From Thiotrichaceae bacterium (GTDB taxonomy: Bacteria > Pseudomonadota > Gammaproteobacteria > Beggiatoales > Beggiatoaceae): a DNA stretch of 64,000 nt. Below the pieces are notes generated by a model, which saw only the letters and a list, made by a program, of their open reading frames with translations, made no database searches and was not told the DNA's origin. Below are positions 39,108 to 48,205 of this stretch, one piece after another (the stretch's first letter is position 1; every line of letters begins with the position of its first letter). Position numbers and translations under genes: made by a program. The stretch is taken from positions 62,001 through 126,000 of the forward strand of contig JAQTYU010000003.1 in NCBI GenBank assembly GCA_028688145.1. Reading direction: 5' to 3'.

Positions 39108-39560
39108 TATTATCTCCTTGAAGTTTATCCCTATAATCATTCCGTATTTTTATAGAATAAAAAGGGCTAATTTTATAAAAATCGTGAAAAATAAGGGTTT
39201 ATTAAATAATACTTAAATTCAAGATAGTCTTTTTACTGGGTAGGATCAAGAATAATATGTAGGCTTTAATTGAGATAACTATAAGGATTTTAAATATTTA
39301 TACATTACAGAACATAAGGATAAAACTAGATTTACGGGCGGTAAAAATGAATGACAGTTATTAAAAAACTTATATTTACTGTATGATTTCACAGGAGTTC
39401 ATAGTTATTTATTTAATAAAATCAATTTAATATTGCATTAAGCTATAATAATTATAAAAATATAAGCTTAATTTTAATAAGTTCACAAGTTGTTCATATA
39501 ATACATTGATCTCAAGTTTTACCGCTGTTACCTCTAAACACGTTAATTTCGTAAGGTAAA

Positions 39561-39590
39561 TTGACAGTTCATAGGCTGCTTGCCTATAGT
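39561..39590 (+). promoter_or_regulatory. Sigma-70 promoter upstream of dut
   Basis: A perfect TTGACA at 39561-39566 and TATAGT at 39585-39590 with an 18-base spacer, 34 bases before the dut start. The rest of the 39108-39560 gap is strongly AT-rich and shows no gene. Confidence 0.65.
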
Positions 39591-39624
39591 GTGACGTTTT
39601 TTGACGAAGTTACGGGATAACACC

Positions 39625-40083
39625 ATGCGCAGTATTGAAGCCAAAATCATCAACCCCCTCATCGGCACACGTTTTCCATTGCCCGAACATGCCACCCAAG
39701 GCGCGGCAGGTTTAGACTTGCGTGCCTGTATTGAAACTGCGGTGGTGATTGAACCCAATCAAACCCAAATGATTGGCAGCGGGATTGCGATTGATATTCA
39801 TGACAAGGGCTTAGCCGCCATGATTTTGCCGCGTTCAGGTTTAGGGGTGAAACACGGCATTGTGTTGGGAAATTTAGTAGGCTTAATCGATTCGGATTAT
39901 CACGGCGAAATTCGGATTGCGGTGTGGAATCGCAGCACGGTGGCGTTCGCGGTTGAACCCGGTGAACGTTTATGCCAAATGATTTTTGTGCCTGTGGTGC
40001 AAGCGGAATTAAAGATTGTTGAAGAATTCAGTCACACCACTGAACGCGGTGAAGGTGGTTTCGGACACACAGGACGGCAATAG
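39625..40083 (+). CDS. dut: dUTP diphosphatase
   Basis: 152 residues with all five trimeric dUTPase motifs: [14 protein letters not shown], the [15 protein letters not shown] uracil pocket, [10 protein letters not shown] and the terminal [10 protein letters not shown] arm. It hydrolyses dUTP to dUMP, keeping uracil out of DNA and supplying thymidylate synthesis. ATG 39625 gives the same length as E. coli Dut; a frame starting at 39601 adds residues not found in the family. The usual coaBC partner is absent. Confidence 0.96.
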
Positions 40084-40154
40084 GCTTGTCTAAGCTTGGA
40101 ACAAAAAATTATGAAGCAAGTCTATATTAGCTTTATATTATTTATTAATATTTC

Positions 40155-40174
40155 TAGTCTATATAGACTATAAT
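40155..40174 (+). promoter_or_regulatory. Palindromic operator abutting a -10 box upstream of the ArsR gene
   Basis: TAGTCTATATAGACTA at 40155-40170 is a perfect 16-base palindrome whose last two bases begin TATAAT (40169-40174), a perfect -10 element. It lies about 105 bases before the ArsR-family gene. A dimer bound here would block RNA polymerase. The start site itself is inferred. Confidence 0.55.
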
Positions 40175-40277
40175 GCAATCAGTTATATGTATTTTGTGAA
40201 AGTCGCCCCTATTCCCCAATAATCTCCAACAGGGAATGACTTCAATTTACTCTTTTCACTGAATCTGGAAATAAAGT

Positions 40278-40601
40278 ATGCCTGAAAGCACCCAGCCTTT
40301 CGCGCTGATTACGCATGACGAAGACATTGAACGCGCCGCCCGCTCGATGAAAGCGATGTCGCATCCTTTGCGCCTGAAAATTCTGTGCACTTTAGGCGAA
40401 AAAGAATACAGCGTTCAAGATATTGTCGATCACGTCGGCACTTCTCAAAGTAATATTTCTCAACACCTTGCCATCCTGCGTGACAAGGGTATTTTAGCTT
40501 CACGCAAAGATGCAAATCGAGTATATTACCGCGTCGGCGATGCACGGACTTTGCGCCTAATCAGCATGATGCGTGAAGTATTTTGCTCATTCTGTGGTTA
40601 A
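40278..40601 (+). CDS. ArsR-family regulator with paired cysteines (BigR/SqrR-like)
   Basis: 107 residues. Winged-helix signature: MSHPLRLKILCTLGEKEYSV, then TSQSNISQHLAILRDKGIL and the RVYYRV wing. Cys37, in the ILCTLGE helix, and Cys103/Cys106 in the terminal FCSFCG align by position with the two cysteines that form a persulfide-sensing disulfide or tetrasulfide in BigR and SqrR. The next gene encodes a rhodanese, which fits sulfur sensing. The assignment to persulfide response is inference; a general ArsR call is safe. Confidence 0.85.
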   Translation: MPESTQPFALITHDEDIERAARSMKAMSHPLRLKILCTLGEKEYSVQDIVDHVGTSQSNISQHLAILRDKGILASRKDANRVYYRVGDARTLRLISMMREVFCSFCG

Positions 40602-40655
40602 TCCAGATTAGTCCACATTTTATCTTCTCATTACTCAGTAGAACTTAGATCGCTT

Positions 40656-41087
40656 ATGGGACAATTATTTGAATTTGTAGGGAATCATTTATTCCTATTT
40701 TTTGCATTATTTGCAGTTTCGGGCGCGTTGATTTGGAACGTTTTTCAATCTCAAATCACGGGAGTTGCTTCAATCAACTGTTTTGAAGTCACCAAATTGC
40801 TCAATCATGAAGATGCCGTATTAATCGATGTGCGCGAAGAAAACGAATTTATCCAAGGGCACATTTTAAACTCAATTAATATGCCGCTAAGTGGCTTATC
40901 TGATAAAATGAGCCGCCTAGAAAAACACCGCGATCAACCCATTATCGCGATTTGTTTAAGTGGTCAACGTTCCGCCCAAGCCTGTGGCAAACTTAAAAAG
41001 CAAGGCTTTGAGAAAGTTTATAATCTCAGCGGCGGTATCATGGCATGGCAAACGGCAAGTCTTCCGCTGACACGCGGCAAAGAATAA
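40656..41087 (+). CDS. Membrane-anchored rhodanese (YibN-like)
   Basis: 143 residues: one N-terminal membrane helix (about 10-30) and a rhodanese domain with the active loop CLSGQRS (Cys100). Rhodaneses carry sulfane sulfur as a cysteine persulfide. The order rhodanese-secB-gpsA is conserved in gammaproteobacteria, although the glutaredoxin gene grxC that normally lies between rhodanese and secB is missing. It follows the ArsR gene by 54 bases on the same strand, so it may be that regulator's target. Confidence 0.9.
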   Translation: MGQLFEFVGNHLFLFFALFAVSGALIWNVFQSQITGVASINCFEVTKLLNHEDAVLIDVREENEFIQGHILNSINMPLSGLSDKMSRLEKHRDQPIIAICLSGQRSAQACGKLKKQGFEKVYNLSGGIMAWQTASLPLTRGKE

Positions 41088-41125
41088 TCCCGAACAATAC
41101 AACGCTTTAACGAGGAATAGAGACA

Positions 41126-41641
41126 GTGGAAGAAGCAATTCAAAACGGCGCAGCCCCACAAGAACAATTTGCAATTCAAAAAGTGTATGTAAAAGACGTA
41201 TCTTTTGAAACGCCCAATTCTCCCTATATTTTCACCGAACAATGGACGCAAGGTTTAGAATTACAAATTTCTAATACCATTGAAGCCTTGTCCGAAGACG
41301 TGTTTGAAGTGGTGTTAAATCTCACCGTGACGGTGAAGGCAGTCAGCACCAATCCTGAAACGGGCGAAAGCAGCGACAAAACGGCGTATTTAATCGAAGT
41401 GCAACAAGCAGGGATTTTCACCGTCAGCAATTTTGGCAGTGAACAATTACAATACATGCTGAACAGCTACTGCTTAACCATTTTATTCCCCTATGCGCGT
41501 GAAGTGATGTCTGATCTCAGTGTGCGCGGCGGTTTCCAACCTTTATTACTTGCGCCTATCAATTTTGACGCGATGTTCGCACAACGTGTTGCCCAGCTTC
41601 AACAAGATGCTGCCGCACAACTTCCCGAAGCCACTGCTTAA
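41126..41641 (+). CDS. secB: Protein-export chaperone SecB
   Basis: 171 residues. The SecB core is clear: IQKVYVKDVSFETPNSP, the acidic strand region, LLFPYAREV-like ILFPYAREVMSDLSVRGGF, and the PLLLAPINFDAMF SecA-binding end. SecB is a tetramer that keeps preproteins unfolded for SecA. The start is a GTG at 41126 with GAGGAA upstream; this gives the expected length. It sits between the rhodanese and gpsA genes, 18 bases from the latter. Confidence 0.95.
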   Translation: MEEAIQNGAAPQEQFAIQKVYVKDVSFETPNSPYIFTEQWTQGLELQISNTIEALSEDVFEVVLNLTVTVKAVSTNPETGESSDKTAYLIEVQQAGIFTVSNFGSEQLQYMLNSYCLTILFPYAREVMSDLSVRGGFQPLLLAPINFDAMFAQRVAQLQQDAAAQLPEATA

Positions 41642-41659
41642 TCTTTCCCGCCGCAACTG

Positions 41660-42667
41660 ATGGTTTTTACACCGACAATTCTCGTGCTCGGCGCAGGCTC
41701 TTGGGGCACTGCGCTGGCGATGGTGTTAGCGCGGAATGGACATCAAGTTGCGCTGTGGGGAAGAAATTCCGCACAGATGCAGCAGATGGCAGCGACTCGC
41801 CAAAACGCCCGTTTTTTACCCGAGATTACTTTTCCTGAAAATTTACACGCTGTCAGCGATTTTGTGCCGTATTTATCCACAGTAGAAGATGTGCTGGTGG
41901 TTGTGCCCAGTCATGCGTTTCGGGAAACTTTAGCCTTGCTTGCCCCCCATCTCGCTATGAACGTGCGAATTTGTTGGGCAACCAAAGGCTTGGAATACAA
42001 AACAGGCTTGTTATTGCATCAAGTTGCGGCAGATATGTTGGGTAAAAATCGCCCGTTAGCGGTGTTGTCTGGGCCTTCGTTTGCGATGGAAGTGGCGAAA
42101 GGTTTGCCGACTGCGGTGACCGTTGCCGCGAACCAAGTCGATTATGCTGAATTATTGGTGAAGAAATTTCACCATCATCCCAGTTTTCGCCCCTACACCA
42201 GTTGTGACATGGTGGGCGTGGAAGTGGGCGGCGCGGTGAAAAATGTGATTGCTATCGCGGCGGGCATTGCCGACGGTTTAGGTTTAGGCGCAAACAGTCG
42301 AGCAGCTTTGATTACACGCGGCTTAACGGAAATGGTGCGTTTTGGCACGGCGTTGGGTGGGGTGCGTGAAACTTTTATGGGTTTGGCGGGTTTGGGTGAT
42401 TTGGTGCTGACTTGTACCGATAATCAATCCCGTAATCGGCGCATGGGTTATGCTTTGGCGCAAGGTCAAACCGACAGCGAGGCACAAGCAAAAATCGGGC
42501 AAGTGGTAGAAGGCGTTCATGCCGCCCGTGAAGTGTATCGTTTGGCACAAGAAATGGAAATTGCCATGCCGATTGTGGAGCATGTGCATAAAGTCTTACA
42601 AGGGGAATATACGCCCCAAGCCGCAGTTCAAGCCTTATTATCTCGCGCAACTACGCAAGAAATCTAA
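41660..42667 (+). CDS. gpsA: Glycerol-3-phosphate dehydrogenase [NAD(P)+]
   Basis: 335 residues. Rossmann motif LGAGSWGTALAMVLARNGH at the N-terminus, the SGPSFAMEVAKGLPTAV segment, the catalytic lysine in GGAVKNVIAIAAGI and GANSRAALITRGL define GpsA. It makes sn-glycerol-3-phosphate, the backbone for phospholipids, and so complements plsX and the fab cluster at the other end of the window. It ends the ArsR-rhodanese-secB-gpsA run. Confidence 0.97.
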   Translation: MVFTPTILVLGAGSWGTALAMVLARNGHQVALWGRNSAQMQQMAATRQNARFLPEITFPENLHAVSDFVPYLSTVEDVLVVVPSHAFRETLALLAPHLAMNVRICWATKGLEYKTGLLLHQVAADMLGKNRPLAVLSGPSFAMEVAKGLPTAVTVAANQVDYAELLVKKFHHHPSFRPYTSCDMVGVEVGGAVKNVIAIAAGIADGLGLGANSRAALITRGLTEMVRFGTALGGVRETFMGLAGLGDLVLTCTDNQSRNRRMGYALAQGQTDSEAQAKIGQVVEGVHAAREVYRLAQEMEIAMPIVEHVHKVLQGEYTPQAAVQALLSRATTQEI

Positions 42668-42840
42668 TATTTCTTTCCTAAAATTCCCTTCTTAAGTTTC
42701 TTAAAAATTCGCAGATTTCGGGGCGATGTTTAGCAGCGTTACGCCCCTAAATTCAGTGGAAAGATTCAATAAAACTTCGATAAAAATGGTTTAGAATTAC
42801 GTTAGATATTTTAGAGTTTTACACTTAGTGGGTAAATATT

Positions 42841-43425
42841 ATGAATACCGTTGCCGTTTTAAAACATTACTCAATTGAAGAGTATTTAGCTGCTGAAGAT
42901 TTGGCGGTTGAGAAAAGCGAATATTACGCAGGAGAGGTTTTTTCTATGGCTGGAGGAACGCTGAATCACAATCGCATTGCTGGCAATATTCACTTTGCAT
43001 TGAAACTGGTGTTGCGTGGCAAGCCATTTGAGGTATTTATCGGTGATGTAAAACTGCATGTTCCTTCCATAGAATCATTTACTTATCCTGATATTTTGGT
43101 GATTGCGGGCAAGCCTGAATATTGGCAAGAACGCCGTGATACGCTGTGCAACGCGCATTTAATTATTGAAGTGTTGTCAAACAGTACCAAGGATTATGAC
43201 CGCGCAGGCAAGTTTGAAATTTACCGTAATCTGCCTGATTTACAAGATTATATTCTGGTCAGTCAAGACAAAATCCATGTCGAGCATTTTGTGAAACAAG
43301 CTCCGCAGCAATGGTTATTAACTGAATACAATAAGTTAAGTGATGTGTTCAGCATTGCCCAATTGGGGGAAACGCTGGCATTGACGGATATTTATGACAA
43401 AGTCGATTTTGAACCCCAAACCTAG
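42841..43425 (+). CDS. Uma2 family (DUF820) PD-(D/E)XK endonuclease
   Basis: 194 residues. The restriction-like core shows as YPDILVIAG (metal Asp), LIIEVLSNST (metal Glu) and DYDRAGKFEIYRNL, ending with the DYILVSQDKIHVEHF strand. Uma2 proteins are abundant in Beggiatoa-like bacteria and cyanobacteria, and their biological role is unclear. The stop is eight bases before the STAND gene, so the two are co-transcribed. Whether this pairing is functional or chance is not known. Confidence 0.87.
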   Translation: MNTVAVLKHYSIEEYLAAEDLAVEKSEYYAGEVFSMAGGTLNHNRIAGNIHFALKLVLRGKPFEVFIGDVKLHVPSIESFTYPDILVIAGKPEYWQERRDTLCNAHLIIEVLSNSTKDYDRAGKFEIYRNLPDLQDYILVSQDKIHVEHFVKQAPQQWLLTEYNKLSDVFSIAQLGETLALTDIYDKVDFEPQT

Positions 43426-47523: not shown

Positions 47524-48205
47524 AGGGCTGCGTCAAAGATTTAAATCACGTTTTTAAATAAGCAGTTAAAGTAGATATTATTGTAACTCCCTCTTATACA
47601 AACACTTTGCTTAAGAGGGAGGACTGGCTAATCAGGCTTTCAACCCCTGCGTGCATCTTCATGATTCCTCACTCACAGAACTTACCCCTGCAAACCTCAA
47701 TAAGTTTAACCCAATACTCCGTAAAATACCCATCACCAAGGCTGAATTCGGTTTAGAGATTGCGCAGCTATCCTCTTTCAAAACATATAAGCATTCGCCT
47801 TCTCACTACTGAGCTATCACTCTTGACCTGCTTTTTCCCACGTGAACCTTCGCGATGGACTAAAATCAAACTACGTAAACCTGCCCATCCTTCCAAAGCT
47901 GAGACAGTCCACACTTTCACTCTGTAACTTATATGGCGACCGTGAGCTTTTTGTTGATAACTAAGAGTGTCTTGTGGTGCTTTGCAAAACGCGCCATCGC
48001 ATGGAAACTTGTATAACCACACATCATGCTCATTATCATGATAATGAGGGTAGGTGTCTGTTGATGACGAATACCTTTGCTCTGACGAGAATCGCTGAGT
48101 GTGGTTAAGTAGGGGATTAAACTATTCATCTCTTATCAGGATAATCAATTAGTTAAGGATTATCTATGTTATACCTAATCTTTAGCTTCTTTGACGCAGC
48201 CCTCC
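47522..48205 (-). mobile_element. Decayed ISAs1-family insertion sequence
   Basis: The inverted ends GGAGGGCTGCGTCAAAGA (47522-47539) and its exact complement (48188-48205) frame a 684-base segment, about half the length of a complete ISAs1 element. The minus strand inside encodes pieces of an ISAs1 transposase (see the pseudogene at 47768-48129). The element is an internally deleted, immobile copy; no target duplication was recognised. Confidence 0.65.
47768..48129 (-). pseudogene. ISAs1-family transposase, internally deleted and frameshifted
   Basis: The first part (from 48129) reads YLTTLSDSRQSKGIRHQQTP then IMIMSMMCGYTSFHAMARFA, the N-terminal domain of ISAs1 transposases. In another frame, the sequence continues KAHGRHISYRVKVWTVSALE and GWAGLRSLILVHREG, the C-terminal domain. 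The catalytic DDE middle part is missing between them, so the gene is dead. Confidence 0.7.

Follow-up and report, generated by a model that had tools for sequence, protein, structure and literature searches.

What does the small ArsR-family regulator at the head of a rhodanese-secB-gpsA operon in a Thiotrichaceae bacterium sense, and how far does its control reach? The gene lies in the window, i.e. the whole stretch of 64,000 nucleotides that was analysed, and a sequence-only reading had taken its product for a dithiol regulator of the SqrR/BigR type, encoded at the head of a rhodanese operon of a sulfur oxidiser. How gammaproteobacterial sulfur oxidisers sense stored and reactive sulfur is poorly known. 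We think it probable (about 70%) that the window ArsR is a SqrR/BigR-type, persulfide-responsive autorepressor of an operon that handles sulfane sulfur. The features of the locus are the following.

39625-40083, + strand: dut, upstream of arsR, with a gap of 194 bp between them
40133-40150, no strand: weak candidate ArsR operator TTATATTATTTATTAATA, the best match in the window to the family motif
40145-40174, + strand: promoter-like site TTAATA-18-TATAAT, 10 of 12, a consensus match only
40155-40170, no strand: perfect 16-bp palindrome TAGTCTATATAGACTA, for which comparison does not support an operator role
40278-40601, + strand: arsR, SqrR/BigR-type ArsR-family regulator of 107 aa (ATG start, open reading frame, profile and structure matches)
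40386-40388, + strand: codon of Cys37, aligned with the first sensing cysteine of BigR/YgaV/SqrR
40584-40586, + strand: codon of Cys103, aligned with the second sensing cysteine of BigR/YgaV/SqrR
40593-40595, + strand: codon of Cys106, an additional cysteine restricted to some lineages
40656-41087, + strand: yibN-type membrane rhodanese of 143 aa with the full active-site loop C100-L-S-G-Q-R105
41126-41641, + strand: secB, GTG start
41660-42667, + strand: gpsA

The arsR product carries the winged helix of Pfam HTH_5 (PF01022; 54 bits, cut-off 22), which places it in the ArsR family, and its predicted model consists of helices and a two-stranded wing (mean pLDDT 79.5, below 50 for residues 103-107). 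The best Foldseek matches to this model are HlyU, SqrR and BigR, and the E-values to the closest solved relatives, which sense reactive sulfur species (RSS) or are near kin of such sensors, are 1.6e-18 for BigR, 4.1e-15 for YgaV and 1.5e-14 for SqrR. Cys37 aligns with the 'LVC/ILC/IMC' cysteine of BigR (3pqj), YgaV (3cuo) and SqrR (13ct/6o8k), and Cys103 with the cysteine at the C-terminal end of each of the three; in the predicted model the former lies within helix 30-39 (alpha 2) and the latter one residue beyond the last helix, 89-102 (alpha 5). Such a pair in alpha 2 and alpha 5 is described as the mark of the persulfide-sensor cluster, which is co-localised with rhodaneses (PMC10509353), and a neighbouring sulfurtransferase or rhodanese gene is found in the window and in 141 of 148 loci. 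Fold and cysteine placement are direct support for the persulfide-autorepressor reading. The NCBIfam equivalog model of BigR (NF040642) gives 82.4 bits against a curated cut-off of 155, which counts against that reading, and the protein is not filed as BigR. A canonical metal-sensing ArsR/SmtB protein, with a CxC-type motif in alpha 3, was rejected because residues 46-53 contain no cysteine. One more ArsR match is present in the genome, a distant one with 26% identity.

Residues were counted over 164 loci with 148 distinct ArsR proteins, the window included. Cys37 is invariant (148/148) and Cys103 is present in 146, an invariance that also supports our reading directly. The sequence-only reading had placed Cys37 and Cys103/106 at the sensing positions; this stands for Cys37 and Cys103 and falls for Cys106, which is found in 26 of the 148 and is lineage-specific, other additional cysteine columns being rare. 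Cys103 is lacking only in L211 and L215, both from a single genus; these two genomes have valine instead and no soxB or dsrA match, and provide a natural experiment on the sensing cysteines. The recognition-helix stretch, residues 55-71, is nearly invariant over the 148 distinct orthologues.

The regulator is far better conserved than its neighbours. It is 78-92% identical to the window protein where the neighbour proteins are 31-67% identical, and the median identities are 86% for ArsR (n 134), 45% for YibN (129), 48% for SecB (109) and 55% for GpsA (67). One set of relatives consisted of the best 80 of 582, a choice favouring high ArsR identity, and two of 111 loci (L002 and L031) were left out for low score. 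ArsR identity exceeds that of both YibN and SecB in all 116 loci that have the three. Two further draws, of 40 and 369 genomes, were chosen independently of ArsR identity. The first gave an orthologue in 24 of the 25 genomes of the window's family, its own genome counted, at 83-100% identity, and in the second, drawn from the class, E 1e-40 was reached in 154 genomes and E 1e-33 in 171. Five genomes of only 1.0-1.1 Mb retain arsR and yibN together, plus parts of the remaining operon.

Across the sampled class, arsR heads the yibN-secB-gpsA operon, and this conservation is again direct support. In many relatives the order is arsR>yibN(>grx>trx2)>secB>gpsA behind a divergent gpmI-envC, with a zinc ribbon in the thioredoxin 2. 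Next to or near ArsR in the 148 loci we find YibN adjacent in at least 141, SecB in at least 124, GpsA in at least 106, GpmI in at least 79, EnvC in at least 74, Grx in at least 59 and Trx2 in at least 42, figures that are minima, since a good many of the loci are short. Judged by the open reading frames of the window, glutaredoxin and thioredoxin genes are absent from its operon. Its four genes share the + strand and are separated by 54, 38 and 18 nt. The earlier claim that the gene after arsR codes for a membrane rhodanese, followed by secB and gpsA, is borne out: the product of 40656-41087 has a rhodanese domain (PF00581, 79 bits) and a hydrophobic N-terminus, read as a membrane helix by inspection only, and in operon with secB-gpsA this is what defines a YibN rhodanese. 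We know of no arsR head gene at the yibN-grxC-secB-gpsA locus of E. coli. That order is an established operon there (PMC12282094), so a rhodanese in company with secB-gpsA is ordinary, contrary to what had been proposed from the window, and the arsR head gene alone is unusual. Searches of open-access papers yielded none on an ArsR gene heading yibN-secB-gpsA. The place before yibN-secB-gpsA, the strict conservation of ArsR and the single conserved operator are new to us, which is not to claim that they are unpublished.

The link to sulfur metabolism is seen in the gene content of the genomes. The genome of the window encodes SoxB, which makes the label 'sulfur oxidiser' reasonable, and the earlier reading was right on this point as on the dithiol regulator itself. 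No dsrA was found in it at E 1e-50; the three other members of its family in the class draw all have dsrA. Over 157 families, represented by one genome each, ArsR (E<=1e-33) occurs with soxB or dsrA in 61 and alone in 12, while 10 have a marker only and 74 have neither (Fisher 1e-20, with kinship handled at the family level only); SoxB was scored by an E-value cut, which lets in two genes (G122, G287) that were not reported above the cut-off of the family. Among families with dsrA, 51 of 54 have ArsR. The 12 of 73 ArsR-bearing families without soxB or dsrA, nearly all of which keep the cysteine pair where it was read, speak against the persulfide-autorepressor reading. They would fit the same dithiol repressor answering to general thiol oxidation (disulfide stress, H2O2) or to an electrophile rather than to sulfane sulfur, and so would the glutaredoxin and thioredoxin 2 in at least 59 and 42 of the 148 loci, as parts of a disulfide repair system. 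We nevertheless find such a signal quite unlikely, as HlyU, which has the same cysteine arrangement, is reported to be reactive towards persulfides but not towards H2O2 or GSSG (PMC10509353), and as both the strong co-occurrence with dsrA and the intact rhodanese loop where ArsR is present argue against it.

This loop follows the regulator closely. The full CxxGxR loop was found in 112 of 144 rhodanese sequences from ArsR-bearing genomes, or 28 of 33 families, against 4 of 29 in genomes lacking ArsR (p 2e-8 for the family count, not tree-corrected). The latter set came from 60 genomes without an ArsR match at E 1e-15, 59 of which had a rhodanese match; the 30 best of these became loci, and L254 was dropped since no secB-operon gene stood beside it. 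Taking the best matches favours loops like that of the window, and the count was still 4 of 29. Where ArsR is absent, the rhodanese is thus usually without the CxxGxR active-site loop. Three reduced genomes of one family (L196, L197 and L199; 1.0-1.1 Mb) keep both ArsR cysteines and have lost the catalytic cysteine of YibN, and this is a further point against our reading.

Where the regulator binds is easier to see in distant relatives than in the window. Outside the family of the window, a site ATTATTGTATAATGTTTT overlaps the TATAAT box upstream of arsR, and exact ATTAT-N3-ATAAT occurs in 32 of 104 arsR promoters; in five shuffles no word of this form reached more than 4. When 20 genomes, most of them chosen for an operator already seen upstream of arsR, were searched, the exact operator ATTATTGTATAATGTT, which overlaps the -10 box, was found in 14, one copy in each and always at arsR. 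G160, also among the 20, has no site within 2 mismatches at its arsR promoter. That the operator of the relatives stands only at the arsR promoter supports our reading directly. The model built on these distant relatives did not carry over to the family of the window (combined p 0.34; 0.08 for the window alone), and together with the weakness of the window's own candidate operator this counts against the persulfide-autorepressor reading.

The sequence-only reading was correct in that a perfect 16-base palindrome touches a TATAAT box upstream of arsR, the box at 40169-40174 sharing two bases with 40155-40170. Could this palindrome be the operator of the window's genome? Like the operator of the relatives it overlaps the -10 box. 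When the 194-bp intergenic region was shuffled 2000 times by dinucleotides, a perfect palindrome of at least 16 bp arose in just 17 of the shuffles, and the 3.63-Mb genome offers no further match to 40155-40170 at up to 2 mismatches. The window holds five further perfect palindromes of at least 14 bp, one of them of 20 bp (CTCATTATCATGATAATGAG, 48029-48048), and taken with the shuffles this makes the palindrome unusual and not extraordinary; nor is TATAAT enriched in the window (31 observed against 39.5 expected). It is not seen in 26 other promoters of the family and matches neither the operator of the distant relatives nor the palindromic motif TTTTAGTATATACTAAAA of the family, although residues 55-71 of ArsR are nearly invariant. 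We regard it as a possible but doubtful operator. The family motif was derived from 27 promoters (log-likelihood 48.7 against 34.3, the highest of 12 shuffled sets), and its best match in the window, at 40133-40150, scores 9.6 bits when the window is left out of the model, a score reached in 14 of 500 shuffles. This match adjoins the palindrome without overlap. On sequence comparison we lean weakly to placing the operator at about 40133-40150, while the palindrome stays in contention. A match of 14.2 bits at 40123-40149 was given little weight because the training set of that model contained the window.

Two other stretches of these intergenic regions were noted. Many relatives (e.g. L172, L178, L180 and L181) have a second conserved palindrome, TTTAGACNNAGTCTAAA/C, near gpmI in the gap between gpmI and arsR; it stands upstream of rubrerythrin genes as well (L185, L190 and L194), and was therefore set aside as a second ArsR site and treated as the box of another regulator, which may be one of redox or iron. 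Before the aligned arsR start, L007, L008, L019, L022, L032 and L034 share, by eye, an in-frame leader-like stretch, MxxNxFTEFGMKS. The window DNA matching it, 40250-40277, is out of frame and has stops when the frames are read by eye. This conserved pre-start stretch of the family's arsR genes could represent a leader, a ribosome site or an extended N-terminus of the protein.

If the regulator hardly changes while its neighbours do (median 86% against 45-55%), it could be a SqrR-like master regulator of distant sulfur-oxidation genes for which the operon is merely an autoregulated home. SoxR and sHdrR are described as regulating widely in Hyphomicrobium (PMC12423496), and the genomes that kept ArsR after YibN lost its active cysteine would also fit. 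A search by the operator pattern gave nothing of a wide regulon in the 20 genomes beyond a few one-mismatch sites: there are six, two of them at arsR, and two genomes of one genus (L162 and L163) have such sites before MerR-type genes of 326-337 aa, which a master regulator could explain. The exact operator is confined to arsR in these genomes, and the window palindrome lacks a second copy in its own genome, so we hold this to be very unlikely.

The remaining question is whether control of the arsR promoter extends to the genes behind it. A promoter inside or after arsR could drive yibN-secB-gpsA and leave ArsR to regulate little beyond itself, and there are promoter-like sites within the gene at 40468-40495 and 40499-40527 (9 of 12 each). 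The number of such sites is near chance (10 found against 7.0 +/- 2.3 expected), no TATAAT-like site is listed in the 54-nt gap between arsR and yibN, and a search of 39400-43000 found no terminator on the + strand; an internal promoter is therefore unlikely, and from the gene spacing read-through into secB-gpsA is plausible.

For the persulfide-responsive autorepressor we infer the following course of signal, repression, induction and read-through. The homodimeric ArsR would occupy an AT-rich operator in the arsR promoter, keeping the expression of arsR-yibN-secB-gpsA low. When persulfides or polysulfides accumulate, a sulfur bridge would join Cys37 and Cys103 within one subunit, the bridged protein would leave the DNA and the operon would be induced. 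The rhodanese would then move or reduce sulfane sulfur, in many relatives together with glutaredoxin and thioredoxin 2, and secB and gpsA, its old operon partners, would be raised too if transcription reads through.

Several known systems resemble parts of this scheme. The YgaV protein of Escherichia coli is only moderately similar to the window ArsR (4.1e-15), and to our knowledge the YgaV-YgaP context contains no secB-gpsA, Grx or Trx2. YgaV, too, belongs to the ArsR family and has the dithiol; this repressor is cotranscribed with a rhodanese gene lying downstream, and sulfide is reported to weaken its DNA binding (PMC9774250). An ArsR repressor with a rhodanese is by this analogy an already known kind of system. 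SqrR of Rhodobacter capsulatus and BigR of Xylella fastidiosa and Acinetobacter have the same fold and their alpha 2/alpha 5 cysteines in the same columns, but they are described as controlling genes of sulfide oxidation and detoxification (PMC10451225, PMC7315123), and the window ArsR differs in operon context as well as in falling below the NCBI cut-off for BigR. For SqrR, SoxR and HlyU, derepression by a Cys-polysulfide-Cys bridge has been reported (PMC10451225, PMC10509353). SoxR and sHdrR of Hyphomicrobium denitrificans are likewise sulfane-sulfur-responsive ArsR repressors of a sulfur oxidiser (PMC12423496, PMC10451225), but their genes lie within sox/shdr regions, and they bind at several intergenic regions. 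OxyR of E. coli is a sulfane-sulfur sensor that induces trxC and grxA, with thioredoxin 2 and glutaredoxin 1, their products, acting as reductants of sulfane sulfur (PMC6831875), but it belongs to another regulator family and is an activator rather than an ArsR repressor. The E. coli yibN-grxC-secB-gpsA operon has the same gene order as that after the regulator, and its rhodanese YibN, unlike that of the window, has a displaced catalytic cysteine and binds YidC (PMC12282094).

At somewhat less than even odds, we tentatively propose that nearly all gammaproteobacterial sulfur oxidisers use this ArsR as their sulfane-sulfur sensor, and that it is a dithiol repressor passed on by vertical descent, hardly altered on the way, and acting in essence at a single promoter. 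It would tie the cytoplasmic persulfide load to a module of rhodanese, glutaredoxin and thioredoxin 2; read-through would extend this tie to protein export and to the synthesis of phospholipid precursors. Where the regulator is lost, the active site of the rhodanese would decay. This one candidate sensor, highly conserved and with one conserved operator, occurs in 51 of the 54 dsrA families sampled and in genomes of 1.0-1.1 Mb, and is testable in any culturable member. It also points to a possible ancestral role in the handling of sulfane sulfur for the yibN-grxC-secB-gpsA operon of E. coli.
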